DNA from: Nitratireductor sp.
GTDB taxonomy: Bacteria > Pseudomonadota > Alphaproteobacteria > Rhizobiales > Rhizobiaceae
Reading direction: 5' to 3'
Assembly: GCA_020441665.1 (NCBI GenBank)
Contig: JAGRLT010000122.1
Span: 1 to 55,714 of the forward strand
DNA length: 55,714 nt
Part shown: positions 11,918-40,939 of the stretch, in pieces
Numbering within the stretch: the stretch's first letter is position 1
How the letters are laid out: each line of letters opens with the position of its first letter
Position numbers and translations under genes: made by a program
The notes under the pieces: generated by a model
What the model was told of the DNA's origin: nothing
Seen by the model: the letters and a program-made list of their open reading frames with translations, nothing else
Database searches by the model: none

Positions 11918-14251
11918 ATGACAGGCATGAATCCGACCATTGTGTTTTTGCTGTCGCCATTTCTTGCCGCATTGCTGTCGCCGGTTCTGGTGCGGATCAT
12001 GGGAGCCAATGCGGCCTGGCTGCTGGCGCTGATCCCGGCCGGCATCTTCGCGCATCTTCTGGGCTATGTGCCTTCGGTGGCCGAAGGCGAAGCGGCCACG
12101 ATGGGTGTTGTCTGGGCGCCCTCGCTCGGCGTCAATCTATCCTATTTCCTCGACGGCCTGTCGCTTACCTTCGCGTTGTTGATCAGCGGCATCGGCACGC
12201 TGATCATTCTCTATGCCGGCGGCTATCTGAAGGGCCACGCCCAGCACGGCCGCTTCCTCGCCTTTCTCTTTCTCTTCATGGGATCGATGATCGGCGTCGT
12301 CACCGCGGACAATCTGATCGCGCTGTTCATCTATTGGGAACTGACCTCGATCACCTCCTTTCTGCTGATCGGTTTCGACCACAATCGGATGGCCTCGCGC
12401 CGTGCCGCGCTGCAGGCTCTCGTGGTGACCGGCGGCGGCGGACTGGCGCTGCTTGCGGGCGTCGTCGTGCTGCATCTCGTGACCGGCATGAACGAATTGT
12501 CGCTGGTCCTCAACAGTGGCGACGTGCTGCGCGAAAGTCCGTTCTATCTCCTCGCCTTCTGGCTGGTCATCGGCGGCGCCTTCACCAAATCGGCGCAGTT
12601 TCCGTTCCATTTCTGGCTGCCCAACGCGATGGAGGCGCCGACCCCGGTTTCCGCCTATCTGCATTCGGCCACCATGGTGAAGGCCGGCGTCTATCTTCTG
12701 ATGCGGATGAACCCTGTGCTGGGCGACACGCTCGTCTGGCAGACGGTGCTGCCGGTCTTCGGCACGGCAACGCTGGTGATCGGCACGCTGCTTGCCATCC
12801 GCCAGACCGATCTCAAGCTGATGCTCGCCTATACCACCGTCGCCTCCCTCGGCCTTCTGGTCAGCCTTACCGGTTTCGGCAATGAAAAGGCGATCGAGGC
12901 CGCCGTCTACTATCTCGTCGCCCACGCGCTGTTCAAGGGCGCGCTCTTCATGGTCGCGGGTCTGATCGACCATGAGGCGGGGACGCGCGATATCCGCGCG
13001 CTGGGCGGCCTGCGCTCCGCCATGCCACTCACCTTCGCCGCCGCCGCGCTGGCATCGCTCTCCATGGCCGGCCTGCCGCCCTTCATCGGCTTCATGGCCA
13101 AGGAGGAAATCTATGCGGCGATCGCCAGGGCGGATGCGTGGTCGGTCGCGATCACCCTGTTCACCATCATCGGCAATGCGCTGATGCTGGTGATCGCCGC
13201 CGCCGTCGCCATTCGGCCCTTCCTCGGCGAGGCGAAGGAAACGCCGAAACACGCCCATGAGGGCCCGGTGCTGATGTGGCTCGGCCCCGTGGTGCTCGCC
13301 ACGCTGGGTCTCGTTTCGGCGATTGTCGCGCACACAACCAACCATCTGTTTGTCTCGCCCATGGCAGGCGCCGTCGCCGGGGCCGAGGTCGATGCCCATG
13401 CGGCGATCGCCTTTCACATCGGCCTGCCGCTCGCCCTGTCGGTGGTGACCATCGCGCTCGGCATCGCCGTCTTCTGCTTCCTGCCGCAGGCCCGCTTCGC
13501 CATGGCGAAGGTGCTGCACCGCATCGGCTGGGGGCCGGACACGGGTTTCGACCAGTTCATTTCGGGCCTTGTCTCGCTGTCGACCCTCATCACGCGCTTC
13601 CTGCAGAACGGCCGCATGGAAGCCTATATGACAACGGTCTTCCTGATCTTCGGCGTCGCCATCTGGTACGGGCTCATCCGCTATGGCGAGTTTCCCGAAT
13701 TTCCCCAATTCGTCACGCCGACCTTCTATGAGGCCGGCATCTTCCTGCTCGCGGTGCTGGGGCTGGCGGCCGTCATCTACGCCCACGACCGGCTGACGGC
13801 GATCGTTTCGCTCGGCATTCAGGGCTTTGCCGTCGCGGTGATCTTCATCCTGTTCGGCGCGCCGGACCTGTCTTTCACCCAGTTCATGGTCGAGACCCTG
13901 TCGGTCGTCATCCTCGCGCTCGTCATGACAAGGCTGATCCTCGACAAGACCGATCATCGCCCGTTCGGCGAGCGCTTCTTCGACACCGCCGTCGCGCTGA
14001 TCGCCGGCAGCGGCTTCCTGCTGCTGCTGCTCGCCGTTCTGCAGGTGCCCTTCGATCCGGCCCTGTCCGACTTCTTCACCGCCTATAGCCGCGTCGTCGC
14101 CCATGGCCGCAACATCGTCAACGTCATCATCGTCGACTTCCGCGGCCTCGATACGATGGGCGAGATCGCCGTGGTGATGATTGCCGGCCTCGGCATCATC
14201 GCGCTGATCCGGGTCAAGGCCAGGCGCCCGCGCGCGGAGGCCGAGCAATGA
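11918..14251 (+). CDS. mnhA: Na+/H+ antiporter subunit A (MnhA/MrpA)
   Basis: Subunit A (777 residues) is the largest membrane subunit of the Mrp antiporter, which exchanges cytoplasmic Na+ (or K+) for protons. It is related to complex I subunit Nuo[20 protein letters not shown] and [30 protein letters not shown] cover the proton-channel glutamate and lysine region. The C-terminal 250 residues form the DUF4040/MbhE-like extension, ending near [22 protein letters not shown] at 11918 is chosen from AAGAG upstream and the membrane topology; an ATG at 11927 is also possible. The frame is open for almost 800 bp further upstream, but that part overlaps msrB and is not plausible protein. B is a separate gene here, not fused to A as in some rhizobial Pha systems. 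Confidence 0.92.
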
Positions 14252-14667
14252 ACACGATCATCTTCCGCACCGTCGCGCCCTATCTCACCGCGCTCATGGT
14301 GGTGTTCTCGGTCTTCATCCTGCTGCGCGGGCACAACGATCCCGGCGGCGGCTTCATCGGCGGCCTGATCGCCGCTTCCGCCTTTGCGATCTACGGCATC
14401 GCCAACGGCGTCGCCCCGGTGCGCCGGGCGCTCTATTTCCATCCGATCACGCTCGCCGGCTTCGGTCTGTTTCTCGCCGCCTGCGCCGGCCTGCCTTCCA
14501 TCCTCGCCGGCGTTCCTTTCCTCACCGGGCTTTGGGTGTTTCCGACCGTCTTCGGCGTCGAACTGGCGCTGTCGACGCCGCTCTTCTTCGATATCGGCGT
14601 CTATTTCGTCGTCGTCGGATCGATCACCGCGATCGCGCTCGGCCTTGAAGACAGGATGGAGAACTGA
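14248..14667 (+). CDS. mnhB: Na+/H+ antiporter subunit B (MnhB)
   Basis: The protein has 139 residues and four predicted membrane helices. The motif [21 protein letters not shown] is typical of MnhB/MrpB, which forms part of the antiporter's sodium side with A and C. It overlaps the end of subunit A by 4 bp (ATGA), so translation is coupled. Subunit C starts at the last base of its stop codon. Length is normal. Confidence 0.95.
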
Positions 14668-15044
14668 TGGAAGTCTATCTCGCCATTCTCGTCGGCATCT
14701 TCTTCACCGTCAGCATCTACCTGCTGCTGTCGAAATACGTCATTCGCGTATTGCTCGGCGTCGCCGTGCTCGGCAATGCGGTCAACCTGCTGATCTTCAC
14801 CGCCGGCAGGCTGACCCGCGAAGTGCCGCCGATCATTCCCGCCGGCCTGCAGGTGCCCGTCGATCCGACCGCCAATCCGCTGCCCCAGGCGCTGATCCTG
14901 ACGGCGATCGTGATCTCGTTTTCCTTCTTCGCCTTCCTGCTGGTGCTCGGCTACCGGTCCTTCCAGGACCTGCATACCGACGATACCGACAGCATGCGCT
15001 TTGCCGAGCCGGTCGATGAGCCGGCGCCACCAAGGGGATATTGA
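14667..15044 (+). CDS. mnhC: Na+/H+ antiporter subunit C (MnhC, NuoK-like)
   Basis: This 125-residue protein with three membrane helices is related to NuoK of complex I. It contains YLLLSKYVIRVLLGVAVLGNAVNLLIF, with the conserved GxxxxxNAVNLLIF pattern, and DPLPQALILTAIVISF in the variant form NPLPQALILTAIV. It belongs to the seven-subunit Mrp complex. Its ATG shares one base with the stop of subunit B, and subunit D follows 3 bp after its own stop, so the genes form one operon. Confidence 0.95.
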   Translation: MEVYLAILVGIFFTVSIYLLLSKYVIRVLLGVAVLGNAVNLLIFTAGRLTREVPPIIPAGLQVPVDPTANPLPQALILTAIVISFSFFAFLLVLGYRSFQDLHTDDTDSMRFAEPVDEPAPPRGY

Positions 15045-15047
15045 TCC

Positions 15048-16649
15048 ATGGCAGGCGCATCCAGCGGACACGTCGATCCGACCGGCATCCTGGTGGAGGC
15101 AAATCTCCACCTTGCCGACTATATCATCGTCGCGCCGGTCGTCGTGCCGGTGCTCTTCGGCGCCCTGCTGCTGATGCTGCGCGGCAAGACCCGCTGGCAC
15201 GGACAGATCGCCATCCTCGCCATGGCGCTGCTGGCGCTGTCGACCGGCTTGCTGCTGCAGCGCGTATCGGCGGAGGGGCCGGTGACCATGACCATGGGGC
15301 GCTGGCTGCCGCCCTTCGGCATATCGTTCTCGGTCGACATCGCCGGCGCGCTTCTCGCCTTCGTCTCCTCGCTGATCGCGCTGACGGGCGCCGTCTATGC
15401 GGCATCGACGACGACGACCCTGGAAAGACGCTACGGCTTCTATCCGTTCTTCATGCTGATGATGGCCGGCGTATCGGGTGCCTTCCTGACCGGCGACATC
15501 TTCAATCTCTATGTCTGGTTCGAGGTTCTACTGATCTCGTCCTTCGGCATGATCGTGCTCGGTTCCGAGCAGCGCCAGCTCGACGGAACGATGAAATACG
15601 CCTTCCTCAACCTGGTCGCCACGACCCTGTTCCTGATCGCGACCGGCCTGCTCTACGGTCTGCTCGGCACACTCAACATGGCCGATATCTGGCAGAAGCT
15701 GAATGCGTCCGGCGATCCGGGCAGCGCCGCGCGCGCCGGCCCCGTGACGACGATCGCGATCCTGTATCTTCTGGCCTTTTCCATGAAGGCGGCGGCTTTT
15801 CCGCTCAATTTCTGGCTGCCCGCCTCCTACCATACGCCGAAGTTTCTGGTTTCCGCGCTGTTCGCCGGCCTGCTGACCAAGGTCGGCGTTTACTCGCTGC
15901 TGCGCGTCCTGCTGATGCTGTTTGCCCAGGAGCGGCTTGTTCTGGCCGATACCATCGCTTGGGTGGCGGCCTTCACCATGCTGGCCGGCGTCTTCGGCGC
16001 CCTTGCCCAGAGCGAAATCCGCCGCATTCTCGGTTATCTCGTCATCTCCGGCATCGGCACCATGATGGCGGGTCTTGCGGTCGGATCGCTTACCGCCATT
16101 ACGGGGCTGATGGTCTATGCCGTCCATTCGATGATCGTCATGACGGCGCTCTATCTTGCCGCCGGCATCATGGCGCGGCTTTCGCAAACCTCGAGCCTGT
16201 CGGCGAGCGGCGGGCTCTATGCCGCATCGCCATGGCTCGCGGCCGCTTTCCTGATCCTGGCTTTTTCCGTGTCGGGCCTGCCGCCCACATCGGGTTTCTG
16301 GGGCAAGTTCGTGCTGGTCAGGGCCAGCGTCGAGAGCGGAGCCTGGTGGCTTGCCTTCGTCATCCTGCTGTCGGGCCTGCTGACCACCATCGCGATTTTC
16401 CGCGTATGGATCTTCGCTTTCTGGCGGGGCGGGCCGCAGGATACGCCCGACGGCGCCGAGGCCTGGAAGGTCGAGCCGCTGGAAAAGGCATATCGACAGG
16501 GCGCGTTCCTGGCGCTCGGCGCGCTGGTGCTGCTGACGCTGGCGATCGGCCTGATGCCGGAGGCGCTATTGTCGACGAGCGCTGACGCGGCGCGCGGATT
16601 GCTCTATCCTGGCGACTATATCGGTTCTGTCTTCGGAGGCGGCCAATGA
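15048..16649 (+). CDS. mnhD: Na+/H+ antiporter subunit D (MnhD, NuoN/M-like)
   Basis: This membrane protein of 533 residues belongs to the proton-pumping NuoM/N family, with about fourteen helices. Conserved features are GDIFNLYVWFEVLLISSFG with its channel glutamate, FSMKAAAFPLNFWLPASYH with the lysine, and FSVSGLPPTSGFWGKFVLV. Together with A it provides the proton path of the antiporter. The gene starts 3 bp after mnhC and overlaps mnhE by 4 bp. The N-terminal 20 residues are polar before the first helix, as is common in this subunit. Confidence 0.95.
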   Translation: MAGASSGHVDPTGILVEANLHLADYIIVAPVVVPVLFGALLLMLRGKTRWHGQIAILAMALLALSTGLLLQRVSAEGPVTMTMGRWLPPFGISFSVDIAGALLAFVSSLIALTGAVYAASTTTTLERRYGFYPFFMLMMAGVSGAFLTGDIFNLYVWFEVLLISSFGMIVLGSEQRQLDGTMKYAFLNLVATTLFLIATGLLYGLLGTLNMADIWQKLNASGDPGSAARAGPVTTIAILYLLAFSMKAAAFPLNFWLPASYHTPKFLVSALFAGLLTKVGVYSLLRVLLMLFAQERLVLADTIAWVAAFTMLAGVFGALAQSEIRRILGYLVISGIGTMMAGLAVGSLTAITGLMVYAVHSMIVMTALYLAAGIMARLSQTSSLSASGGLYAASPWLAAAFLILAFSVSGLPPTSGFWGKFVLVRASVESGAWWLAFVILLSGLLTTIAIFRVWIFAFWRGGPQDTPDGAEAWKVEPLEKAYRQGAFLALGALVLLTLAIGLMPEALLSTSADAARGLLYPGDYIGSVFGGGQ

Positions 16650-17119
16650 ACCTCCTGCTGATGAATATGCTGCTGATGCTGTGCTGGGCGGCTGTTACCG
16701 GCAATTTCAGCGAACTCAACCTGCTGTTCGGCTTCCTGCTCGGCCTGTTCTCGCTCTGGCTGATCCGCGAACAGACCGGCACGGGAGGTTATTTCGGCCG
16801 CACGCTGCGCATTTTCTCGCTGTTGCTGCTCTTCATCCGCGAACTGGCGCTCTCGGCCTTCCGCGTGGCGGTACTGGTGCTCAGCCCGCGCATGGAAACC
16901 AAGCCCGGCATCTTCGCCTTTCCGCTCACCGTCGACCGGGATTTCGAGATCACGCTGCTCGCCAACCTGATCACCCTGACGCCCGGCACGCTCTCCGTCG
17001 ATGTTTCCGCCGACCGCAAGCATCTTTACGTCCATGCCATCGATTGCTCCGACATTCCCGGCAATGTCGCGGACATCGCCAACGGGTTCGAGCGCAAGAT
17101 CCTCAATGCGTTCAGATAG
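16646..17119 (+). CDS. mnhE: Na+/H+ antiporter subunit E (MnhE)
   Basis: This 157-residue subunit has two N-terminal membrane helices and a C-terminal soluble part. It contains NLLFGFLLGLFSLWLI and the conserved patch LLANLITLTPGTLSVDV followed by LYVHAIDC. It overlaps mnhD by 4 bp (ATGA), so it is translationally coupled. MnhE has no complex I counterpart and is required for assembly of the full Mrp complex in systems studied elsewhere. Length and motifs are normal. Confidence 0.95.
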   Translation: MNLLLMNMLLMLCWAAVTGNFSELNLLFGFLLGLFSLWLIREQTGTGGYFGRTLRIFSLLLLFIRELALSAFRVAVLVLSPRMETKPGIFAFPLTVDRDFEITLLANLITLTPGTLSVDVSADRKHLYVHAIDCSDIPGNVADIANGFERKILNAFR

Positions 17120-17128
17120 GAGCCGGCC

Positions 17129-17452
17129 ATGAGCGCATTCCACTTTCTCGACTTTGCCATTTCCATTGCCCTGGTGATGCTCACCCTTTCCTTCTTTCTC
17201 ACCTGCTACCGGGTCGTGGTCGGGCCGACACTCCCCGACAGGATCATGGCGCTCGACATGCTGGTGGGGGTGGTGATCGGTTTCATCGCCGTCATCGGCG
17301 TCAAGACCGGCTACCATCTTTACGTCGATATCGCCCTGGCGCTCGGGCTTGTCGGCTTCCTGGCGACGGTCGCCTTCGCCCGCTTCGTGCTCGAACGCGG
17401 TGTCGGCGACCATGAAAGGGCCCTGCTCGAGGATCGGGAGGGCAAGCGATGA
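17129..17452 (+). CDS. mnhF: Na+/H+ antiporter subunit F (MnhF)
   Basis: The subunit has 107 residues and three membrane helices. The family stretch [18 protein letters not shown] is followed by [27 protein letters not shown]. It starts 9 bp after mnhE, with GGAG ahead of its ATG, and overlaps mnhG by 4 bp. It is a small Mrp complex subunit likely packed at the interface of the A and D modules. Confidence 0.95.
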
Positions 17453-17775
17453 TGGCGCCCGTTCTGGCTGGAGTTCTGGTTATCGTCGGTGCGTTTTTCG
17501 CGCTGATAGCCGCGATCGGGCTGATTCGGCTGCCCGATGTCTATTCGCGCATGCATGCCGCCTCGAAGGCTGGAACCGTCGGTTCCGGCCTGATGATGAT
17601 CGCGCTTGCGATCGTGTCCGGCGACAGCGGCACGGCGGCCCGGGCGCTTGCCGGTGTCATTTTCTTCGTGCTGACCGCCCCCATCGCGGCCCATCTGCTC
17701 GCCAGGGCGGCCTATAAGGTGGGCTACCCCCTGTGGCATGGCAGCGTGGCCGACGAGATGTCCGATGCCGAATAG
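17449..17775 (+). CDS. mnhG: Na+/H+ antiporter subunit G (MnhG)
   Basis: This 108-residue last subunit of the Mrp operon has three membrane helices. Family signature: [20 protein letters not shown], then [18 protein letters not shown]. It overlaps mnhF by 4 bp. All seven subunits A-G are present in canonical order, so the operon encodes a complete antiporter for sodium and pH homeostasis. No clear terminator hairpin with a T-run follows its stop. Confidence 0.95.
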
Positions 17776-18209
17776 CCCGTCCGGCATTGCCGCGCGCGCA
17801 TCGCGGAATGGGCATCAAGCCCTTGTAGGATATAGGGAAACGGAAGCCTAAGTATTCAGAATATTCAATAGGAGGCTGGGCGCCCGGGCAAATGATCGCA
17901 AAGCAAAAGGCCCCGGCATGAAGTCGAATCGCGCTCTTTTATGCCCTTGATTGCGGGCGCCGCTCTACATTCGCGAGAAATTTATGTATTATACACGTAT
18001 TAATTGACCTTCCCTTGCGCAAGCAAAAAATTCAGCATATGGCAATCTTGAAAGGCCAATATTGTTGACATTTTCGTCATTATAGCTAGTTAAACAAGAT
18101 TGAAGCCAATCGGTATTTATAATAGAATTGGCTCGGATGGCAGCACCATTATTCATGTGTATGCTGCACATAATTTGACCCACCAACAAGTACAGAAAGA
18201 ATAACGGCA
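17776..18209. other. gene-free, AT-rich leader region of mucR
   Basis: This 434-bp stretch has no convincing gene. Its second half (about 17940-18205) is much richer in A and T than the window average, with many TA steps. The palindrome TATTCAGAATA lies at 17853-17863. MucR/Ros proteins are known to bind AT-rich DNA and repress their own genes, so autoregulation here is a reasonable inference. I saw no RNA gene. Confidence 0.5.
18065..18092 (+). promoter_or_regulatory. candidate promoter for mucR
   Basis: TTGACA at 18065-18070 is followed after 16 bp by TAGTTA at 18087-18092. It lies about 120 bp ahead of the mucR start inside the AT-rich tract. The -10 match is weak. Confidence 0.3.
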
Positions 18210-30200: not shown

Positions 30201-30719
30201 ATGGAAAACGCATCACAAGACAGCCCCGGCGTCTCCTTTACCCCCCAACAGCGCTGGGCCGCGCGGGTCGCCTGTGAGCATCACGCCATGACCACGGGCC
30301 AGATCGCCCGGCTGATGGGGGCGGACGCGGCGCTGGTCGAGGCCTGGTTCGAAACGGAAGGCTGGCGGCAGGCGGAAGCTGCGGACACTGGCGACAGTCC
30401 CGACGGAGAGCATGTCGCGGCGCTTGCCCGGCGGCTGGAAACCACCATCCGGGCCGATCTCGACCGGCTCGAAGCGGCCTCCGGCAAGATTGGCGGCGGC
30501 GAAACCGGCGACATGGAAAAGCGCACGCGCAATCACCTCGCGCTGGTGAAATCGCTGCGCGAGCTGGCGGATATGGTCAAGGACATCGAACAGGCAGCCC
30601 ATGCAAGACGATATCCGGCGGATGTTGTGGAGTTCCGCCGACAGCTTGAAAGGCGCATTGCAGCGCTTGCGGACGAAAGCCCAGAGGCTGGCGCTGATCG
30701 GCGGGCTGACGACGGATGA
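30201..30719 (+). CDS. GTA g1-like protein (small terminase-like)
   Basis: The protein has 172 residues and lies first in the cluster. An N-terminal helix-turn-helix-like part (FTPQQRWAARVACEHHAMTTGQIARLMGADAALVEAWFETEGW, here described by its ends FTPQQ at 12 and ETEGW at 54) is followed by two long charged helices. These include RTRNHLALVKSLRELADMV (about 107-125). This is the layout of phage small terminase subunits, which recognise DNA for packaging. Its 3' end overlaps the large-terminase frame by 119 bp, which is common in this cluster. No strong ribosome site precedes the ATG. The assignment rests on position and fold pattern more than on strong motifs. Confidence 0.7.
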   Translation: MENASQDSPGVSFTPQQRWAARVACEHHAMTTGQIARLMGADAALVEAWFETEGWRQAEAADTGDSPDGEHVAALARRLETTIRADLDRLEAASGKIGGGETGDMEKRTRNHLALVKSLRELADMVKDIEQAAHARRYPADVVEFRRQLERRIAALADESPEAGADRRADDG

Positions 30720-31899
30720 ACGCGAGTTTCTTTTGCGCGACTGGCCGGTCTTCTCCCACCTTCCGCAGCGCGAGCCGCACGGAAACTGGCGTACCTGGCT
30801 GATGCTGGGCGGGCGCGGCGCCGGCAAGACCCGCACCGGTGCCGAATGGCTCACCGCGCTGGTCCATCGCGACCGCCATGTCCGGGGCGACACCGCTGGC
30901 CGCATCGCGCTGGTCGGCGAGACCTATCAGGATGTGCGCCAGGTGATGATCGAGGGGGAGTCGGGCCTGCTCGCCATCCAGCGCGGCGACCGCAAACCCA
31001 AATGGCTGCCGTCTCGCCGCCTGCTCGAATGGCCGAACGGGGCGATCGCCCAGGTCTTTTCGGCGAGTGATCCCGATGGCCTGCGTGGCAACCAGTTCGG
31101 CGCGGCCTGGTGTGACGAGATGGCCAAGTGGCCCTATCTCGAAACAACCTGGAACATGCTGCAATTCTGCCTGCGGCTGGGTACCCTGCCGCGCCAGTTG
31201 GTGACGACGACGCCGCGCCCGCTCAGGCTGATCAGGAAACTGATCGAGGACAGGACGACGGCGCTGACCCGCTCGGCGATGCTGCTCGACGATGCTGCGA
31301 TTAACATCGACGAATGGCTGGCGCAGGAGGTGGAGATCGCCTTCGCCGAACAGGAGAGCACCGCCTTCATCACCGGCGATGGCGTCAACAAGCCCAAGGG
31401 CCTGCTCGACAATCCGGCGGTGGCCGAAACCGCCTGGAGCTGGGGTAATCTCGGCTATGTGCCGACCGGTACCGATGGCGCCTTTGCCGCGAGCGATGCC
31501 TCCGACGTGCTGGTCGATACGATCTATGCGCTCAAGGCCGGCTACCGGCAGAACGCCAACTGGCTGCTCAACCGCCGCACCCAGGCCGAGATCCGCAAGC
31601 TGAAGGACGCCGACGGCAATTATCTCTGGCAGCCGCCGGCGACCGCCGGCGAGAAGGCCATGCTGATGGGCTTCCCGGTCACCGAGGCCGAGGACATGCC
31701 CGACATCGCGTCCGACAGCCTGTCGATCGCCTTTGGCGACTTCGCCCGCGGCTATCTGATCGTCGACCGGGCCGGCGTGCGCGTCCTGCGCGATCCCTAT
31801 TCCGCCAAGCCCTATGTGCTGTTCTACACCACCAAGCGCGTCGGCGGCGGGGTGCAGGACTTCGACGCCATCAAACTGGTGAAATTCGGCACCGCGTAA
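30601..31899 (+). CDS. chimeric ORF: large terminase N-terminus fused to major capsid protein C-terminus
   Basis: This single open frame of 432 codons joins two GTA genes. Residues 1 to about 225 are a terminase large-subunit ATPase, with Walker A GGRGAGKT (70-77), Walker B around Asp172-Glu173 in WCDEMAKW, and the coupling motif VTTTPRP (201-207). From about residue 228 (LLDDAAINIDEWLA) it is the C-terminal half of an HK97-type capsid protein: FAEQESTAFITGDGVNKPKG, QNANWLLNRRT, GFPVTEAEDMP and the ending FDAIKLVKFGTA. The junction lies near 31276-31285 and is in frame. The terminase nuclease domain, portal, prohead protease and capsid N-terminal half are missing. Neither packaging nor shell assembly should work from this protein alone. 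The ATG at 30601 lies inside g1, a normal overlap for GTAs. Confidence 0.9.
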   Translation: MQDDIRRMLWSSADSLKGALQRLRTKAQRLALIGGLTTDEREFLLRDWPVFSHLPQREPHGNWRTWLMLGGRGAGKTRTGAEWLTALVHRDRHVRGDTAGRIALVGETYQDVRQVMIEGESGLLAIQRGDRKPKWLPSRRLLEWPNGAIAQVFSASDPDGLRGNQFGAAWCDEMAKWPYLETTWNMLQFCLRLGTLPRQLVTTTPRPLRLIRKLIEDRTTALTRSAMLLDDAAINIDEWLAQEVEIAFAEQESTAFITGDGVNKPKGLLDNPAVAETAWSWGNLGYVPTGTDGAFAASDASDVLVDTIYALKAGYRQNANWLLNRRTQAEIRKLKDADGNYLWQPPATAGEKAMLMGFPVTEAEDMPDIASDSLSIAFGDFARGYLIVDRAGVRVLRDPYSAKPYVLFYTTKRVGGGVQDFDAIKLVKFGTA

Positions 31900-32015: not shown

Positions 32016-32585
32016 ATGGCATTGATGCTGCTCACGGCGCCTGCCGCCACCGCCGTTTCCCTTGACGAGGTCAAGCGCCATCTGCGCGTCGAGACCGCCG
32101 ATGACGACCTCTATCTGACCGATCTCATTGCAGCCTCGACCGGCCATCTGGAACAGGTGGCGGGAGTAAAACTCATCACCCAGACCTGGCGCCAGTTTCT
32201 CGATGGTGTGCCGGACGACAATTGCATCCGGCTGGCAGTGGCCCCGGTGCGCTCGCTGGTTTCCATGACGGTCTACGATCGCGACGGCGTCGGCACATCG
32301 GTGCCGATGACCGATCTCGAACTCGATGCGGTCTCCGCACCGCCGCGCCTGTTGCTGAAGGCGGCCCATCAGGCCGGCAAGGCGCTCAATGGCGTCGAGA
32401 TCGATATCGTGGCGGGTTTCGGCGACACCGCCGCCGACGTGCCCGACACATTGCGCAGGGCGCTGCTGTTGCTGATCGCCCATGCCTACGAATTTCGCGG
32501 CGCCGTGCCGGTCGATGCCCAGCCGGCTTCCGAACCCCACGGGTTTCGCACCCTGATCGCTCCGTTCAGGAGGATGGCGCTGTGA
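32016..32585 (+). CDS. GTA g6, head-tail connector
   Basis: This 189-residue protein belongs to the phage head-tail connector (gp6-like) family. The start MALMLLTAPAATAVSLDEVKRHLRVE and the helix DLYLTDLIAASTGHLEQVAG are typical, as is the closing HAYEFRGAVPVD. In RcGTA this protein sits between the portal and the tail. The gene is open and complete although the portal it should bind is missing here. It overlaps g7 by 4 bp (GTGA). Confidence 0.85.
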   Translation: MALMLLTAPAATAVSLDEVKRHLRVETADDDLYLTDLIAASTGHLEQVAGVKLITQTWRQFLDGVPDDNCIRLAVAPVRSLVSMTVYDRDGVGTSVPMTDLELDAVSAPPRLLLKAAHQAGKALNGVEIDIVAGFGDTAADVPDTLRRALLLLIAHAYEFRGAVPVDAQPASEPHGFRTLIAPFRRMAL

Positions 32586-32917
32586 ACGCTCACGGTTTTC
32601 TTCACCCCGGCCGGTTTTCCGTCCGCCTGATGCTGCAGCAACGCATCGAGAGCGATGACGGCCATGGCGGTTTCACCGGCGCCTGGCAGGACATCGAGGC
32701 GGTCTGGGCCGGCATCGTGCCGGTCGAGGGCATCGTCACCCGTCAGGCCGACAACACCCAAACCGCGATCACCCACTGGATCTATGTCCGCCAGCGGGGC
32801 GATGTCCTACCCGGCATGCGCCTTGCCAAGGCCGGTCGCATCTTCGACATCGAAACCGTGCTCGATCCCGACGAGACGGGCCGCTACCAGGTCCTGAAAT
32901 GCGTGGAGCGGTCATGA
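32582..32917 (+). CDS. GTA g7, head closure/adaptor protein
   Basis: This 111-residue protein matches the phage head-tail joining family (HK97 gp7/SPP1 gp16 type). FSVRLMLQQRIESDDGHGGFTGAWQD and ITHWIYVRQRGDVLPGMRL are characteristic, here given in separate parts of residues 12-37 and 65-84. The GTG start at 32582 overlaps the g6 stop, giving the normal length; a longer open frame upstream lies inside g6 and is rejected. It closes the head opening and docks the tail. Confidence 0.85.
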   Translation: MNAHGFLHPGRFSVRLMLQQRIESDDGHGGFTGAWQDIEAVWAGIVPVEGIVTRQADNTQTAITHWIYVRQRGDVLPGMRLAKAGRIFDIETVLDPDETGRYQVLKCVERS

Positions 32918-33078
32918 AGCTTACCTACCGCCTCACCGCCGACAGCCTGAGTCGCGCCCTGCGCCGCCTTCAGGCGATGAAGCCCGTTCCGCGCGAGGGC
33001 GCCGTCCGTCCCGTTGCCACCGCGCGCGCATCCAGCCCGACCAATCGGAGGCCGTCCCGCCATGAGCGCCGCCCTTGA
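32914..33078 (+). CDS. small ORF between g7 and g8
   Basis: This ORF of 54 codons starts at ATG 32914, overlapping the g7 stop (ATGA), and fills the 144-bp gap before g8. The protein starts MKLTYRLTADSLSRALRRLQAM and is basic. RcGTA, as I recall it, has no gene here, but siphophages have an HK97 gp10-like tail-completion gene at this place, so it may be a shortened relic or a chance frame. No family match is claimed. Confidence 0.4.
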   Translation: MKLTYRLTADSLSRALRRLQAMKPVPREGAVRPVATARASSPTNRRPSRHERRP

Positions 33079-33472
33079 ATTGCAGGCTGCCATCGTTAGC
33101 GCGCTGCGCCAGGCGCCCGGCCTGCTGACGGCGCTTGGCGGGCCGCATATCTATGACGACGTGCCCGATACCCGCCGCCCGCCCTATGTCCAGATCGGGT
33201 CGGTGGAGACGCTCGACTGGAGCACCGGAACCGAGGAGGGAGAGGAACATTTCGTCGAGATCGCGGCCTGGTCGGAAACCAATGGCCGCCAGGCCGTCGC
33301 CCTTCTGGCAGAGGCGATCCGCCTAGCGCTTGCCGCCCTTGCCGGACCGTTGCCCGGCCACGCGCTGGTTAATCTCAGCCATGAGGCGACGCGCACGGAG
33401 CCCGTCTCCGGCGACCGCCACTTCCGCGCCATCCTTTCCTTCCGCGCGGTGACCGAGCCGCTCGCACCCTGA
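33062..33472 (+). CDS. GTA g8, tail terminator (DUF3168)
   Basis: This 136-residue protein belongs to DUF3168, tail terminator or completion proteins that cap the tail tube. It has ELQAAIVSALRQAPGLLTALG, then VPDTRRPPYVQIG, and HALVNLSHEATRTEPVSGDR toward the end. The ATG at 33062 follows CGGAGG and gives the family length; an earlier in-frame start at 33014 adds 16 poorly matching residues. The gene is intact. Confidence 0.85.
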   Translation: MSAALELQAAIVSALRQAPGLLTALGGPHIYDDVPDTRRPPYVQIGSVETLDWSTGTEEGEEHFVEIAAWSETNGRQAVALLAEAIRLALAALAGPLPGHALVNLSHEATRTEPVSGDRHFRAILSFRAVTEPLAP

Positions 33473-33499: not shown

Positions 33500-33910
33500 A
33501 TGACCGCTCAGAAGGGCAGGGATCTCCTGCTGAAAATCGATGATGGCGCCGCCGCCTTCGTGACCGTTGCCGGCCTGCGCGCGCGGCAATTGTCGCTCAA
33601 TGCCGAAACCATCGACGCGACCGATTCAGAATCGGCTGGCCGCTGGCGCGAACTGCTTGCCGGCGCCGGCCTGCGGCGCGCCTCGATCAGCGGATCGGGC
33701 ATTTTCAAGGATGCCGCGTCCGACGAGCTGGTGCGCGCCGCCTTCTTTGCTTCCGACAACCGCAGCTGGCAGATCATCGTGCCGGATTTCGGCATGCTGA
33801 GCGGGCCGTTTCAGATCGTGTCGCTCGAATATTCCGGTCAGCATACCGGCGAGGTCGCCTTCGAGATCGTGCTCGAATCGGCCGGCGAAATCCTCTTCTC
33901 CGCGATCTGA
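33500..33910 (+). CDS. GTA g9, major tail protein
   Basis: This 136-residue tail tube protein is of the phage major tail protein 2 type. The start TAQKGRDLLLKIDDG, the ring-forming strand LNAETIDATDSESAGRWRELL and SGSGIFKDAASDE are the usual elements. It is the tube building block, repeated along the tail. The ATG follows GAGGAG at good spacing. Its stop shares one base with the g10 start. No defect is visible. Confidence 0.9.
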   Translation: MTAQKGRDLLLKIDDGAAAFVTVAGLRARQLSLNAETIDATDSESAGRWRELLAGAGLRRASISGSGIFKDAASDELVRAAFFASDNRSWQIIVPDFGMLSGPFQIVSLEYSGQHTGEVAFEIVLESAGEILFSAI

Positions 33911-34266: not shown

Positions 34267-34477
34267 CGGCTGGTGGCGCTCGGCCTTCCGTTTCGCAGTC
34301 CTGCAGGCAGGGTTGGCGCCCGCCCAGTTCTGGCAGTTGACGTTGCCGGAACTGCTCATGCTGATCGCAGCCGAAGGCGCCGCCGCCGGCCTTCCCGATC
34401 GAACCGCCTTCGAGACCCTGATGCAAGCCTTTCCCGATACCGCAAGGGAGGAAGCCCATGCCGCGTGCCGCCGCTGA
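34256..34477 (+). CDS. GTA g10.1, second tail assembly chaperone
   Basis: This 73-residue protein starts at GTG 34256 inside the end of g10 (11-bp overlap). WWRSAFRFAVLQAGLAP and FWQLTLPELLMLIAAEG are the family pattern of the short rcc01693-like phage proteins found just before the tape measure gene. Its end overlaps g11 by 20 bp. The longer upstream frame is rejected because it lies inside g10 without matching the family. Confidence 0.8.
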   Translation: MADSGWWRSAFRFAVLQAGLAPAQFWQLTLPELLMLIAAEGAAAGLPDRTAFETLMQAFPDTAREEAHAACRR

Positions 34478-35003
34478 CACCTACGTTCTCGATGCCGATA
34501 CCCGCGCTTTCCAGGCCGCGATGGATGCGGCGACCCAGAGCACGAGAAACTTCGGCAGCGCCTTCACCGCGACGATCCGCCAGGCGATCACCTCCGGCAA
34601 GGGGCTGGAGGATACGTTGCGCTCGCTCGCCATGCGCCTGTCCACCCTGGCGCTCAACAGCGCGCTGGCGCCGATCGAAAAGGGCATCTCTCAAACCATA
34701 AACGGCTTCATATCGAGCATTCTGACGCCAAAGCCCTTTGCCAGAGGCGGGGTGGTCGGCGCGCCCGCGCTCTTTGCCCATTCCGGCGGGCTGGGAGTGA
34801 TGGGCGAAGCCGGGCCGGAGGCGATCCTGCCGCTGTCGCGCGGCGCGGATGGCCGCCTGGGCGTCGCCGCAGCGGGCGCCAGCCAGCCTGTCCAGATCGT
34901 CTTCAACGTCCAGGCGCGCGACGCCGAAAGCTTCCGCCGCACCGAAGGCCAACTGACCGCCATGCTCGCCCGCACCGTGCAGCGCGGCCGCAACAAACTG
35001 TGA
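34458..35003 (+). CDS. GTA g11, tape measure protein
   Basis: This 181-residue protein is very short for a tail tape measure protein, but GTA tails are short and RcGTA gp11 is only a little longer. The N-terminus LDADTRAFQAAMDAATQS is coiled. The middle SLAMRLSTLALNSALAPIEKG is hydrophobic, and FARGGVVGAPALFAHSGGLG with GEAGPEAILPLSRG is the usual C-terminal processing region. ATG at 34458 follows GGGAGGAAG. Tail length would be set by this protein. Confidence 0.82.
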   Translation: MPRAAADTYVLDADTRAFQAAMDAATQSTRNFGSAFTATIRQAITSGKGLEDTLRSLAMRLSTLALNSALAPIEKGISQTINGFISSILTPKPFARGGVVGAPALFAHSGGLGVMGEAGPEAILPLSRGADGRLGVAAAGASQPVQIVFNVQARDAESFRRTEGQLTAMLARTVQRGRNKL

Positions 35004-35027: not shown

Positions 35028-35678
35028 ATGCCGCAATTAGCAGCCTTTCACGACGTCCTGTTCCCGACCGACATAGCGCTCGGCTCGACCGGCGGGCCTG
35101 AGCGCCTGACGGAGATCGTCACGCTCGGCTCGGGCCGCGAACAGCGCAATGCCCGCTGGGCCCATTCCCGCCGCCGCTACAATGCCGGCTACGGCGTCAG
35201 GACCCTTGCCGATCTGCAAACGGTCATCGCCTTTTTCGAGGAGCGCCGCGGCCGGCTGCACGGCTTCCGCTTCCGCGATCCGCTGGACAATCGTTCCGCC
35301 GCGCCCGGCATGGCGATCTCGCCGCTCGATCAGGGGATCGGTACCGGCGACGGAGCGATGGCCGATTTTCAGCTCGTCAAGACCTACGGAGCGGGCGCGA
35401 CCGCTTATCAGCGCGCTATCGTCAAGCCGGTCGAGGACACGGTTGTCGTCGCCGTTGACGGTATCGTCAAGGTGGAGGGGCTCGATTTTTCCGCCGATGC
35501 GTCGACGGGCGTGATCCATTTCCTTGCCGGCCGCGAGCCGGGCGCCGGCGAAGAAGTGCGCGCCGGCTTCGACTTTCACGTCCCGGTGCGCTTCGATGCC
35601 GACGAGATTTCCGTCAACATCAAGACCTTTCTGGCCGGCGACATCGCCTCGATCCCCATCGTGGAGATCATCCCGTGA
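35028..35678 (+). CDS. GTA g12, distal tail protein (DUF2460)
   Basis: This 216-residue protein belongs to DUF2460, the distal tail protein that joins tube and baseplate. FHDVLFPTDIALGSTGGPER, RNARWAHSRRRYNAGYGVRT and GRLHGFRFRDPLDNRSA are all family signatures. ATG at 35028 is 25 bp after the g11 stop. The stop overlaps the GTG start of g13. The gene is complete. Confidence 0.9.
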   Translation: MPQLAAFHDVLFPTDIALGSTGGPERLTEIVTLGSGREQRNARWAHSRRRYNAGYGVRTLADLQTVIAFFEERRGRLHGFRFRDPLDNRSAAPGMAISPLDQGIGTGDGAMADFQLVKTYGAGATAYQRAIVKPVEDTVVVAVDGIVKVEGLDFSADASTGVIHFLAGREPGAGEEVRAGFDFHVPVRFDADEISVNIKTFLAGDIASIPIVEIIP

Positions 35679-36586
35679 GAACGCTCTCCCCAGGCCTGCG
35701 CAATCATCTCGACGGCGAGGCGATCACGCTCTGCCATTGCTGGCAGATCCACCGCGCCGATGGCGTCGTGCTCGGCTTTACCGACCATGACCGCGACATC
35801 GGTTTCGACGGTATCGTGCACCACGCCCGCTCGGGCTTCGAGCCGGGCGATGCCGAACTGCCGGCAACGCTTTCGCCGGCCAATAGCGAGATCGCCGGCG
35901 CGCTTTCAAGCGGCGACATCACGGCGGAAGACATTGCGGCCCGCAAATATGACGATGCGCGGGTGATCGAATATATGGTCAACTGGTCCGATCCTGATGA
36001 GCGGGTCCGGTTGCAGACCTGGATCATCGGCGAGATCGTCCAGGAGGATGGCGCCTTCCGGGCCGAACTGCGCTCGATCGCCGCGTTGTTGGAGCGCGCC
36101 GGGCTCAACCGGTTCGAGCGGCTGTGCGGCGCCGAACTGGGCGACGGGCGCTGCGGCATCGATCTCGGCGCCGATTTCAGCGACGCGGCGACGATCGCGA
36201 CCCTGCAACAGCCCGAGGCGGAAAACCGGCTGTTGCTGACCCTTTCCAGCCTGCCCGATCACGAGGATGGCTGGTATGCCGGCGGCGGCATCACCTTCGA
36301 CGCCGGCGCCAATGCGGGCCTGGCGATCGAGATTGTCACCGACCGGCGCGTGGCCGGCGGATTGCGCTCGGTCGAATTGTGGTCGGTGCCGGGCTACGCG
36401 GTTCAGACCGGCGAGGGGGTCACGCTGACGCCCGGCTGCGACAAGCGTTTTGCCACCTGTCGCGAAAAATTCGCCAATGGCGACAATTTTCGCGGTTTTC
36501 CCCACATGCCGACGGCTGAATTCATCACCACCTATGCCTCCAATGCGAAGCAGATGGATGGCGGCGCCCTGTTTGTCGATGAATAG
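35675..36586 (+). CDS. GTA g13, tail hub protein (DUF2163)
   Basis: This baseplate hub protein of 303 residues contains DUF2163. It has LCHCWQIHRADGVVLGFTDHD (split as LCHCWQIHR and LGFTDHDRDI), VNWSDPDERVRLQTW, and the C-terminal cysteine-containing part LTPGCDKRFATCREKFANGDNF. RcGTA gp13 binds an iron-sulfur cluster through such cysteines, so Cys in CDKRFATC may be ligands. GTG start at 35675 is coupled to g12. Confidence 0.9.
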   Translation: MRTLSPGLRNHLDGEAITLCHCWQIHRADGVVLGFTDHDRDIGFDGIVHHARSGFEPGDAELPATLSPANSEIAGALSSGDITAEDIAARKYDDARVIEYMVNWSDPDERVRLQTWIIGEIVQEDGAFRAELRSIAALLERAGLNRFERLCGAELGDGRCGIDLGADFSDAATIATLQQPEAENRLLLTLSSLPDHEDGWYAGGGITFDAGANAGLAIEIVTDRRVAGGLRSVELWSVPGYAVQTGEGVTLTPGCDKRFATCREKFANGDNFRGFPHMPTAEFITTYASNAKQMDGGALFVDE

Positions 36587-36598
36587 CAGTCGCAACGC

Positions 36599-37057
36599 AT
36601 GACCAGCGAGGAACTCGACGCAGCCATCCTGGCCGAATGCCGGGCCTGGATCGGTACGCCCTATCGCCATCAGGCATCGGTGAAGGGCGTCGGCTGCGAC
36701 TGTCTCGGCCTGCTGCGCGGCATCTGGCGCGCGGTCCGAGGCCGCGAGCCCGAAGCGCCGCCGCCTTATTCGCCCGATTGGGGCGATGTGAGTGGCGGCG
36801 AGACCCTGCTGGCGGCCGCCGGGCGGCATCTTGTTCGGACCGAAGCAATCGCACCGGCCCGCGTCTTACTGTTCCGCTGGCACCCGCACCTGCCGGCAAA
36901 GCATGTCGGCATCGTGCTGGATAAGCGGACCTTCATCCATGCCTGCGAGCACGCCGGTGTCGCCAAAGCGCGCCTTTCCGGCCAATGGCTGCGACGTGTC
37001 GCTGGCATTTACCACTTTCCCGCTGCGGCAAATTCAACAGTGAAATCGGAGCGCTGA
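36599..37057 (+). CDS. GTA g14, NlpC/P60-type cell wall peptidase
   Basis: This 152-residue NlpC/P60 peptidase sits at the tail tip and opens peptidoglycan during DNA delivery. The motif VGCDCLGLLRG has catalytic Cys35, and KHVGIVLD holds His102. The N-terminal helix ECRAWIGTPYRHQ is typical. ATG at 36599 starts 12 bp after g13, and the megatron gene starts 3 bp after its stop. All catalytic residues are present, so it could be active even if heads are not made. Confidence 0.9.
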   Translation: MTSEELDAAILAECRAWIGTPYRHQASVKGVGCDCLGLLRGIWRAVRGREPEAPPPYSPDWGDVSGGETLLAAAGRHLVRTEAIAPARVLLFRWHPHLPAKHVGIVLDKRTFIHACEHAGVAKARLSGQWLRRVAGIYHFPAAANSTVKSER

Positions 37058-37060
37058 TCC

Positions 37061-40000
37061 TTGGCAACGGTTGTTCTGCAGGTTGCGGGCGCTGCCATCG
37101 GTGCCGCGTTGGGCGGCCCGGTCGGCGCCATCGCCGGCCGCGCGCTTGGCGCCATCGCCGGTTACGGCATCGACCGGCAACTCTTCTCCAAGGACCAGGT
37201 GGTGCGCGGCGGCAGGCTCGATGAAACCCGCCTGCTGACCTCCGACGAAGGCGCGCCGATCCCGCGCAGCTATGGCTGGACCCGGCTCGGCGGCCAGATC
37301 ATCTGGGCTACCCGATTTCGCGAGGTCGTCAACAAGAAGAAAAAGAAGAGCGGCAAGGGTGGCGGCGGACCGTCGGTCACCACCGTGACCTATTCCTATT
37401 TCGCCAATTTCGCCATCGGCATCTGCGAGGGAGAGATTTCGAAGATCGGCCGCATCTGGGCCGATGGCACCGAACTCGACCGGTCGAAGCATGCGATCCG
37501 CATCTATCGCGGCACCGAAGACCAGCAGCCCGATTCCCTGATCGAGGCGAAGCAGGGCTTCGGCAAGGCGCCGGCCTTTCGCGGCACCGCCTATGCGGTC
37601 TTCGAGGATCTCGCGATCGCCGATTTCGGCAACCGCATTCCCCAGATCACCTTCGAGGTGATCCGCGGCATCGCTTCGGTCGACAGCGCCATCCGCTCGA
37701 TCAACATCATCCCCGGCAGTAGTGAATTCGGCTATTCGCCGACCGCCATCCGCACCAACCTGCTTGGTCGCAACCGGCTCGAAAACGCCAACCAGTTGGT
37801 GGCATCGTCCGACTGGACCGAATCCCTCGACCAGTTGCAGGCCCTTTGCCCCAATCTTACATCGGTCTCGCTGGTGGCGGCCTGGTTTGGCGACGACCTT
37901 CGCGCCGGCGAATGCAGGATCGAGCCACGCGTTGAGGGCAAGGAGACCAACCGCCACGCCTGGACGGTCAGCGGTATTTCGCGCGCAGCCGCGACGCTGA
38001 CCAGCCGGATCGAGGGTCGCCCGGCCTATGGCGGCACGCCCGACGATGCGGCCGTCATCGCGGCGATACAGGACATCAGGGCGCGCGGCCTGAAGGTCGG
38101 CTTCTACCCTTTCATCCTGATGGACGTGCCGCAGGGCAACGGCCTTGCCGATCCCTATGGCGGCACCGAACAGGCGGCCTATCCCTGGCGCGGCAGGATC
38201 ACCTGTCATCCGGCGCCGGGCGAGCCGGGCAGTCCCGACCAGAGTGCCGCGGCGGCGGCCGAGGTTGCTGCCTTTCTCGGCAACGCGCAGATCCACCAGT
38301 TCACCCCAGCGGCAGCGACGGTGACGTTTTCCGGCGGCTCGGATTTCGGCCTGCGCCGCATGGTCCTGCACTATGCCCATCTTTGCGTGCTGGCCGGCGG
38401 CGTCGATACCTTCCTGGTCGGTTCAGAACTGCCGGGGCTGACAAAACTGCGCGATGGGGCAGGGGCCTTTCCCTTTGTTGCCGGATTGCAGACGCTTGCC
38501 GCCGATGTGCGCTCGGTGCTCGGGGCGGGTGCCGCCATCAGCTATGCCGCCGACTGGAGCGAATATTTCGGCTATCATCCGTCCGGGCCGGACGGCGACG
38601 TCCTGTTCAACCTCGATCCGCTCTGGGCCGATGCCAATATCGATTTTATCGGCATCGACAATTACATGCCGGCAAGCGACTGGCAGGAAACCGGCGATCC
38701 CGGCATGCCGGACCGGCACGCGATCCACGATCCCGCCTATCTTGAAGCGAATCTTCTCGGCGGCGAGGGCCATGACTGGTTCTATGCCAGCGATGCGGAT
38801 CGCGCCAACGGCATCCGAACCGCGATCACCGACGGCTTGGGCGAACCGTGGATCTGGGCCTATAAGAATCTGCCGGACTGGTGGTCGAACGCCCATCACG
38901 AGCGGTTGGGCGGTATGCGCTCGCCGGTTCCGACTGCATGGGTGCCGCAATCGAAGCCGCTCCGGTTCACCGAGCTTGGCTGCGCGGCCATCGATCGCAG
39001 CACCAATCAGCCCAATGTCTTCGTCGATGCGAAATCGTCGCAATCGGCACTGCCCTGGTTTTCCCGCGCCGGTCGCGACGACCTGCTGCCGCTGCGTTAT
39101 GCCGCCGCACAGCTTTCCTTCTGGGATGCGTCCCATCCGCTGGCGGACAGTTCGAACCCGGTATCGTCGGTCTATGGCGAGCGGATGATCGATGTCGGCG
39201 ATCTGTCGTTCTGGGCCTGGGATGCACGCCCCTTTCCGGCCTTTCCTTCCGCCCTCGATGTCTGGAGCGACGGGCTCAACTGGTATCGCGGCCACTGGCT
39301 CAATGGCCGGCTCGGCACCTGTCCGCTCGACGATCTCCTTGCCGCGATCTTCGCCGATATCGGCATGGCCGTCCCCGAGCTTCATGTCGACGGCCATGTC
39401 ACCGGCTATGTCATCGGCGGCAACGGCAATCTGCGCCAGACCGTCGAGCCGCTGCTGACGGCGTTCAATCTTGCGGTCCATGAAAGCGGCGGCAAGCTCG
39501 TACTCACGAGCCGGAACCGGCTTGCCGGGCACGATCTTGTCGCGGATGAACTGGCGTTGCAGCCCGACGCCCCGCTGATTGCCAGGCGCAGGGCGGGCGA
39601 ACACGAATTGCCGCGCTCGATCGTCACCGCCCATGCCGATCTCGAGGCCCGATACGATACGGTGACGACCGCCGCCGCGCGCTCGAGGACCGCCAGCAAT
39701 CGCGAATTGCGCATCGACCTGCCGGCGGTATTGCCGCGAGAAACGGCCCAGGCGCTGACGATTTCAAGATTGCGCGACTTCTGGACCGGGCGCGATACGA
39801 TGGCTTTCGGCCTGCCGCTGCGCCGGCTGGAGGTCGAGCCGGGCGATCTGCTGAGCCTTGAGGGGCGGGAGCTTTCCCGTGTGGCAAGCCTTACCCTGGG
39901 TCGGCGGATCGACCTGGAGACCGCGGCGATTTCCCGCCATGAGCAGACCGCGGTCTGGGGCCATAAGACAACTCCGCCGGCGCCGGCCGGAACGGCACCC

Positions 40001-40939
40001 GGTGTGCCGCAGGTTCTGCTGATGAACCTGCCGCTCGCCCAGAACGAGGCCGATCCGGCGCCGCGCCTGCATGCGGCGGTCTATGCCGATCCCTGGTCCG
40101 GCACCTACGCCATCCTGCGCTCGCCGGGCTCGACCGGCTTCGAAACGGTCACCTCGGCCGGCGCGCCGGCAACCCTGTTCGAGGTTCTGGATGCGGTTGG
40201 CACAGGCCCGCTCGGCCGCTGGGACCATGCTGCCATTCTGCATGTGCGCGTATTGGAGGGTGAATTCGAATCCCTTGAGGATATGCTGGTGTTCGAGGGC
40301 CGTAACGCCGTGGCGGTCGCGACGGCGGGTGGCGGCCATGAGATCGTCCAGTTCCGTCAGGCCGACCTGATCGCAGCCGATGAATGGCGGCTCACCGGCC
40401 TGCTGCGCGGCCAACTCGGCACCGATGGCGAGATGGTGTCGGGCATCGAGGCCGGCGCCCTTGGCGTGCTGATCGACGAGGCGGTGACCGAGGTGCCGGT
40501 GCCGGCCGGCCTGGTCGGGCTGTCGCAGAACTACCGCGTCCTGGCGCAAGGCGAGCAACTGGGCTCCGCCAATGCGGTGGCGCTTGCCGCCACCTGTACC
40601 GCGATTTCGGCGCGACCGCTGAGCCCCGTGCATCTTGTGGCGGCAAGAACCGGCAGCGGTTACGCCATCACCTGGCTGCGCCGCTCGCGGCTCGATTCAG
40701 ACCGCTGGGACATCGAGGAAGTGCCGCTCGACCATTCGCCGGAGCGCTACCGCGTCTCGATACTCGATGGCGCGGCGCTGGTCCGCGAATGGGACGTCAC
40801 CGCACCGGCGGCGACGTATCCAGACAGCGAGCGGCTCGCCGATTTCGCCTCGCCGGGCGATCCCTTCGCCATCGCCATCGCCCAGCTTGCCGAAAACGGC
40901 ACGCCGGGACCGGCCGCGACGCTCGCGGTCCAGCCATAG
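37061..40939 (+). CDS. GTA g15, host-specificity 'megatron' tail fibre protein
   Basis: This large baseplate protein of 1292 residues forms the tail tip and determines binding to recipient cells. The N-terminus (1-45) is a Gly/Ala-rich hydrophobic segment. It is followed by GAPIPRSYGWTRLGGQIIWA and the phage-tail region FANFAIGICEGEISKIGRIWADG, cited here by ends FANFAIG near 109 and WADG near 131. A GTA TIM-barrel-like domain covers about 350-700 (FIGIDNYMPASDW, WSDGLNWYRGHWLNGRLG). The C-terminal half matches the phage-tail_3 region and a fibronectin-like end. It starts at TTG 37061. The gene is full length with no frameshift. Confidence 0.92.
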   Translation: MATVVLQVAGAAIGAALGGPVGAIAGRALGAIAGYGIDRQLFSKDQVVRGGRLDETRLLTSDEGAPIPRSYGWTRLGGQIIWATRFREVVNKKKKKSGKGGGGPSVTTVTYSYFANFAIGICEGEISKIGRIWADGTELDRSKHAIRIYRGTEDQQPDSLIEAKQGFGKAPAFRGTAYAVFEDLAIADFGNRIPQITFEVIRGIASVDSAIRSINIIPGSSEFGYSPTAIRTNLLGRNRLENANQLVASSDWTESLDQLQALCPNLTSVSLVAAWFGDDLRAGECRIEPRVEGKETNRHAWTVSGISRAAATLTSRIEGRPAYGGTPDDAAVIAAIQDIRARGLKVGFYPFILMDVPQGNGLADPYGGTEQAAYPWRGRITCHPAPGEPGSPDQSAAAAAEVAAFLGNAQIHQFTPAAATVTFSGGSDFGLRRMVLHYAHLCVLAGGVDTFLVGSELPGLTKLRDGAGAFPFVAGLQTLAADVRSVLGAGAAISYAADWSEYFGYHPSGPDGDVLFNLDPLWADANIDFIGIDNYMPASDWQETGDPGMPDRHAIHDPAYLEANLLGGEGHDWFYASDADRANGIRTAITDGLGEPWIWAYKNLPDWWSNAHHERLGGMRSPVPTAWVPQSKPLRFTELGCAAIDRSTNQPNVFVDAKSSQSALPWFSRAGRDDLLPLRYAAAQLSFWDASHPLADSSNPVSSVYGERMIDVGDLSFWAWDARPFPAFPSALDVWSDGLNWYRGHWLNGRLGTCPLDDLLAAIFADIGMAVPELHVDGHVTGYVIGGNGNLRQTVEPLLTAFNLAVHESGGKLVLTSRNRLAGHDLVADELALQPDAPLIARRRAGEHELPRSIVTAHADLEARYDTVTTAAARSRTASNRELRIDLPAVLPRETAQALTISRLRDFWTGRDTMAFGLPLRRLEVEPGDLLSLEGRELSRVASLTLGRRIDLETAAISRHEQTAVWGHKTTPPAPAGTAPGVPQVLLMNLPLAQNEADPAPRLHAAVYADPWSGTYAILRSPGSTGFETVTSAGAPATLFEVLDAVGTGPLGRWDHAAILHVRVLEGEFESLEDMLVFEGRNAVAVATAGGGHEIVQFRQADLIAADEWRLTGLLRGQLGTDGEMVSGIEAGALGVLIDEAVTEVPVPAGLVGLSQNYRVLAQGEQLGSANAVALAATCTAISARPLSPVHLVAARTGSGYAITWLRRSRLDSDRWDIEEVPLDHSPERYRVSILDGAALVREWDVTAPAATYPDSERLADFASPGDPFAIAIAQLAENGTPGPAATLAVQP

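Follow-up and report, generated by a model that had tools for sequence, protein, structure and literature searches.

The window analysed here is the whole 55,714-nt stretch of contig JAGRLT010000122.1 of Nitratireductor sp., and inside it an ORF at 30601-31899 on the + strand translates to 432 amino acid residues with zero internal stops. It joins, in a single frame, the ATPase half of a terminase (g2) and the C-terminal half of a capsid protein (g5), and is called the chimera below. The ORF lies in a cluster resembling that of the Rhodobacter capsulatus GTA (RcGTA, rcc01682-rcc01698). The features of the locus are as follows, where G004, G001 and G002 are other genomes of the same genus; G004 (a single contig of 3,357,577 bases) served as the reference for the missing block.

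Upstream flank: penicillin-binding protein (minus strand), UPF0260-like protein, then g1; names given by reading the ORFs
30201..30719, + strand: g1-like gene (small terminase position), 172 aa; about 50% identity to the G004 ORF at the same place; overlaps the chimera start
30601..31284, + strand: ATPase half of the terminase (g2), chimera residues 1-228; Terminase_6N at 68-222; 75% identity to the G004 terminase over 1-228
31273..31899, + strand: C-terminal half of the capsid protein (g5), chimera residues 225-432; Phage_capsid at 225-429; the match overlaps the junction tract
31277..31284, + strand: junction of the presumed deletion, an 8-nt one-mismatch microhomology; CGACGCTG in the G004 terminase and CGACCCTG in the G004 capsid gene
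32016..32585, + strand: g6-like head-tail connector (adaptor); TIGR02215, E=5.2e-50; homologous ORFs in G004, G001 and G002
32585..33472, + strand: g7- and g8-like head-tail genes; homologous ORFs with 60-67% identity in G004 and G001
33500..33910, + strand: g9-like major tail tube protein; PF06199, E=6.9e-43; TIGR02126
33910..35003, + strand: g10, g10.1 and g11 (tape measure); g10 and g10.1 assigned from their position and from ORF homologues in G004 and G001
34458-35003, + strand: g11 tape measure alone; NF058675 (RcGTA_tape), 131.8 bits, under the curated cut-off of 220
35028..40939, + strand: g12-g15, i.e. distal tail, hub, NlpC/P60 peptidase and megatron; TIGR02217, TIGR02218, TIGR02219 and NF048004 above cut-off, all open
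Flank beyond the cluster: response regulator; name given by reading the ORF

The two halves of the chimera were recognised by separate family searches. Pfam placed Terminase_6N at residues 68-222 (E=2.8e-23) and the HK97-type Phage_capsid family at residues 225-429 (E=1.6e-66, starting at profile position 83 of 280), and NCBIfam placed major_cap_HK97 at residues 224-429 (E=3.6e-76, positions 192-385 of a 385-position profile). A chance ORF is ruled out because both halves match curated families far over the cut-offs. The large-terminase ATPase domain is present with its Walker A and motif III, the motifs GGRGAGKT, WCDE and VTTTPRP starting at residues 70, 170 and 201, respectively; WCDE we take to be Walker B-like, and TTTPRP motif III-like. 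An earlier reading of this DNA, made from its letters alone (the sequence-only reading), had proposed a terminase ATPase up to about residue 225, with Walker A at 70-77 and VTTTPRP at 201-207, continuing as the C-terminal half of a capsid protein, and both parts of this proposal are borne out by the family matches. The C-terminal nuclease domain of large terminases is absent, the sequence past residue 224 being that of a capsid protein by the Pfam, NCBIfam and 6tb9 matches. This capsid half has 89% identity to the capsid proteins of both G004 and G001, and it matches the RcGTA capsid structure 6tb9 from about chain position 180 to 384 (E=3.3e-75), whereas the alignment of the intact G004 capsid protein starts at position 49; the N-terminal arm and the extended loop of the HK97 capsid are absent. 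The start codon of the chimera agrees with that of the G004 terminase (MPDDIRRMLWNS vs MQDDIRRMLWSS), and the upstream ORF is overlapped in both. A 54-row protein alignment was set aside: its terminase rows fell on the capsid half, with the G004 terminase at 28% identity there versus 75% in the pairwise comparison.

In its gene order the window shares with the RcGTA cluster g1, g2 ... g5 and g6-g15, with the megatron last. Unlike RcGTA, it lacks the C-terminal half of g2, g3, g3.5, g4 and the N-terminal half of g5 as one block, and it has an in-frame g2-g5 junction instead. Compared with the large terminase TerL (RcGTA gp2, T4 gp17 type), the chimera keeps the ATPase half without the nuclease domain. 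For RcGTA TerL, passages of one study (PMC6854486) give L27-V258 as the ATPase part, which alone binds gp1, and V253-L455 as the nuclease part; the chimera retains most of the ATPase part and lacks the nuclease part altogether. With the HK97-fold capsid protein Rcc01687 (6tb9) it shares the C-terminal part described above, and everything before that part is absent. In the RcGTA capsid, as described in part of PMC7296036, the N-terminus at 99-106 contacts the portal and the extended loop at 148-152 contacts the adaptor. Since the retained capsid begins near 6tb9 chain position 180, where chain and published residue numbering may differ by about 12, the portal- and adaptor-contacting parts are gone.

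The rest of the cluster is collinear and includes g1 and g6-g15 with the megatron, where g1, g7, g8, g10 and g10.1 are identified by position and sister ORFs only. The g1-like ORF has no Pfam or NCBIfam match and is named from its position and its G004 homologue, and the g8 ORF has no NCBIfam match. From connector to megatron the downstream genes are in RcGTA order, and all scored ones except the tape measure exceed curated cut-offs; the open frame of g11 (181-193 aa) is close in length to those in G004 (207) and G001 (198). Genes g6-g15 are uninterrupted in the window, and homologous ORFs occur in the same order in G004, G001 and G002. Elsewhere in the window, the AT skew was about -0.21 to -0.27 over three successive 2-kb bins at 12001-18000, with comparable values only at 46-48 kb.

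At the corresponding locus of G004 the order is a 452-aa terminase, a 414-aa portal, an intervening ORF, a 245-aa protease and the capsid gene, all of them intact. The DNA alignment between the window and G004 is collinear on both flanks with one 3.7-kb jump: the window up to 31284 corresponds to the G004 locus (L111) up to 3351, and the window from 31282 corresponds to it from 7087. Relative to G004 and measured in its coordinates, 3738 bp, a multiple of three, are absent from the window, and no portal, g3.5 or protease gene lies between the two halves of the chimera. The claim of an in-frame terminase-capsid fusion by internal deletion in a GTA cluster is thus upheld by the comparison with sister genomes; the absence of portal, g3.5 and protease had been seen correctly as well, but the accompanying estimate of about 3 kb was too low. 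Other genus members do carry about 3.7 kb more at this place, and sister assemblies with about 3 kb more were what the sequence-only reading had named as a sign against itself. These longer loci do not speak against the deletion, because they belong to other species and likely represent the ancestral state, not an error here.

The window reads CGATGCTG at the junction tract, and the tract is in identical codon phase in the G004 terminase and capsid genes, so that the frame of the chimera stays open. A tract as long was reached by 39 of 4000 random in-phase pairs (0.98%), which gives mild support only because the register was picked after the join had been seen. We infer the true tract length in the window lineage from the letters of G004; the terminase end of the tract reads differently in G001. 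The window holds 0 ambiguous bases (N).

The missing genes were then sought in the rest of the draft genome that contains the window (3,343,299 bases in 173 contigs, 93.65% complete and 2.16% contaminated). Searched with the missing block of G004, this draft gave 62 bases of the window's own capsid half; all other matches were short, with E no better than 0.02 (40 of 140 candidates scored). The G004 portal protein had no match in this draft, and the same query matched four of the seven genus genomes; likewise the portal family was unmatched there, with four of 14 control genomes positive, and the protease (g4) was unmatched, with matches in three of the seven genus genomes. Neither an RcGTA-like portal (g3) nor a prohead protease (g4) was therefore found in the draft, and relocation of the missing pieces within the genome is rejected as far as the draft allows, the block, portal and protease searches being empty. 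There is also no second intact terminase or capsid gene of this kind in the draft, in which the sole match to the chimera is the chimera itself.

The fusion was also sought in other genomes. With the chimera as query, matches were obtained in 51 of 61 genomes (its own and 60 relatives). Every listed match in the 50 matching relatives is confined to one half or runs just a short way beyond the junction, and some genomes match one half only; among the listed matches the overhangs end up to residue 248 and start down to residue 202, apart from one contig (G027:C74, residues 24-278). That contig, with the longest overhang past the junction, was rejected as a fusion, being an ordinary full-length terminase (7-443 of 452). 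Among the best 80 of 583 genome loci and the best 80 of 600 viral loci, the listed matches fall on the capsid half and start at residue 202 or later. The exact 30-base junction had 0 matches in viral contigs, and none of 604 matched phage records covered 80% of the chimera in a single place. In a set of 163 loci, in which some genomes are present twice from two collections, the terminase was matched in 103, and all but two of these (L112 and L113, stored in the reverse orientation) have both halves on the + strand. None of these 101 loci contains a fusion, and the terminase-capsid spacing in them is 3005-7642 bp, with a median of 3754. In 53 of the 60 loci without a terminase match the sequence upstream of the capsid half extends for 5.5 kb or less, and in the other seven it extends for 8 kb; in these seven (L071, L072, L069, L089, L074, L093 and L097) no terminase match was seen in those 8 kb at E<=1e-10. 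In these data the terminase-capsid fusion occurs a single time. Open papers, searched to a limited extent by titles and the starts of abstracts, yielded no published terminase fusion or GTA fusion of such kind.

Selection was analysed with a four-genome codon model in which the window branch had a separate omega, for both halves, the flanking genes and g6-g14 without g10.1. The window-branch omega was 0.077 for the terminase half (185 codons; gain over one omega 2dL 0.46; omega=1 costs 2dL 8.68), 0.186 for the capsid half (204 codons; gain 10.86; omega=1 0.90) and 0.140 for both halves together (389 codons; gain 11.44; omega=1 7.17). The corresponding values were 0.174 for the flanking control genes (536 codons; gain 16.42; omega=1 4.51), 0.159 for g6-g11 without g10.1 (839 codons; gain 6.30; omega=1 23.67) and 0.089 for g12-g14 (637 codons; gain 0.05; omega=1 27.14). 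The rise in the capsid half is significant alone, yet it is not above that of the control genes, and when this half is taken by itself omega=1 is not rejected. Synonymous sites are saturated, since the G002 branch is at or near the upper bound of the codon model, and the omega test is therefore weak: it gives no good date for the deletion, does not demonstrate selection on the chimera, and fits a recent lesion and a retained protein alike. The deletion looks recent relative to the split from G004, because both halves and the other GTA genes are still open.

Considering the collinearity with G004, the junction tract and the empty searches for the missing genes, we assume with a probability of roughly 0.83 that an RcGTA-like cluster was inactivated by one real and fairly recent internal deletion of about 3.74 kb, and that the chimera is its by-product. 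Set against G004, the lost DNA would have encoded the nuclease domain of the terminase, the portal, the protease, the ORF lying between these last two, and the capsid protein's N-terminal half. Its origin was most likely slippage or end-joining at a short microhomology, to judge from the tract at the join, and the shared codon phase of this tract would have kept both remnants in one frame. On the basis of the RcGTA and tailed-phage literature no DNA-packing particle would be expected, because the portal, the nuclease and a complete capsid protein are all missing; the chimera itself is most likely non-working. The lineage would then be a GTA non-producer. The loss and pseudogenisation of GTA clusters are already known in Alphaproteobacteria: the portion of PMC10883770 consulted describes pseudogenisation and complete loss in multiple alphaproteobacterial lineages, and it proposes that pseudogenised clusters could be recently emerged cheaters, while other causes of loss are allowed. 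The cluster in the window fits the description of pseudogenised GTAs in that portion, and the expected non-producer would accord with its 'cheater' reading.

It is unlikely that the organism has an intact cluster and that chimeric reads or a misjoin brought together in the contig two places lying 3.7 kb from each other. The draft consists of 173 contigs at 93.65% completeness with no second assembly of the species for comparison, the join sits in a short shared tract where template switching also occurs, and the closest capsid match among the best 80 viral contigs has only 86% identity, leaving no same-species contig there to compare. Against such an artefact, the missing 3.7 kb, the portal and the protease were found on no other contig of the genome, although the draft may lack some small contig. 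Moreover, the window is free of N and the frame is preserved exactly, and a different assembly (G005, also a draft, 77% complete) has a different deletion in the same cluster. Assemblers usually need overlaps longer than an 8-nt tract with one mismatch, which also speaks against a misjoin.

Very little probability is given to the chimera being a working protein with a new role, in which the ATPase half would bind g1 and the capsid half would dock onto a head-tail part, or the whole would regulate a tail-only particle. Such a role would agree with the open frame, with the retention of Walker A, WCDE and TTTPRP, with the open g1 and tail genes, and with a window-branch omega well below 1 for both halves together and for g12-g14. 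The binding of gp1 by the RcGTA TerL ATPase domain by itself, reported in the passages of PMC6854486 cited above, would agree with it as well. The low omega, however, averages a long branch of which most perhaps precedes the deletion, and the flanking controls have similar values; the capsid half is without its N-terminal arm and extended loop; and the fusion occurs in one genome only, in none of the 101 loci or the 604 matching phage records at 80% coverage, with no conservation of the chimera seen in a second strain of the species. Of the two outcomes that the sequence-only reading had offered, a recent lesion or a protein with a new use, the lesion is favoured and the new use, conceivable as it is, gains no support. 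Least probable, and hardly to be expected, is that the cluster represents a head-less, tail-only particle system, i.e. a GTA on the way to a flexible tailocin, where the tail genes would stay open along with the cell-wall peptidase after the loss of head packaging, and where a g1-binding chimera would shut off the head pathway or cap the head end of the tail.

The deletion in the window is not the only apparent damage to this cluster in the genus. About half of the Rhizobiales members conserve the RcGTA-type gene set, to differing extents, according to a passage of PMC9836097. Among the seven genus genomes, G004 and G002 look intact in the genes compared, with g1 unmatched in G002 at E<=1e-8; the terminase-portal-protease-capsid order is intact in G002 as in G004, and the same layout is found in G001 with frameshifts. 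In G001 (L112, contig C50) the portal is split over two frames near residue 197, the g1 match is likewise split, and the protease match contains a stop after residue 241 of 245; these frame splits could be decay or sequencing errors. G001 also has a second C-terminal piece of the megatron (L207, C92:21562-22116), 50% identical to that of the window and covering a range that overlaps the piece on C50, from a contig break or a second source. In G005 (a draft of 420 contigs; L214, C318:5000-8010) the portal continues to about residue 242 and is followed by about 0.55 kb without a DNA match and then by the flank that lies after g15 (a small hypothetical gene and the response regulator), apparently a larger, separate deletion of most of the GTA cluster with its own ends. 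G006 (99% complete; L209/L212, C108) and G003 (L210/L213, C102) have an empty site, where the response regulator is within about 0.9 and 0.5 kb, respectively, of the UPF0260-like gene, as against 12.1 kb in the window, and no match to the chimera, the portal or the megatron occurs in the stretch read at these two sites. In a tree of two flanking genes, G004, G001 and G005 group together with support 100 and the window branches separately next to them; the opposite side (support 99) is formed by G002, G006 and G003. We take the absence in G006 and G003 for a loss, since their clade also contains G002, which keeps the cluster, and since some match to the chimera is present in 28 of 36 same-family relatives; it may represent one loss or two.

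The kinds of damage differ between the lineages of the genus. Five of the seven genomes have apparent GTA damage or loss in at least three different forms, all at one chromosomal site that they share; three of the five are drafts (G000, G001 and G005) with lesions pending reads, and the completeness of G003 is only 77%. The chimera is probably debris; the useful part of the finding is the genus that surrounds it. If confirmed, the clade would be a natural series for how, and how often, GTA production is lost, and such a series bears on the persistence of GTA production against non-producing cheaters.
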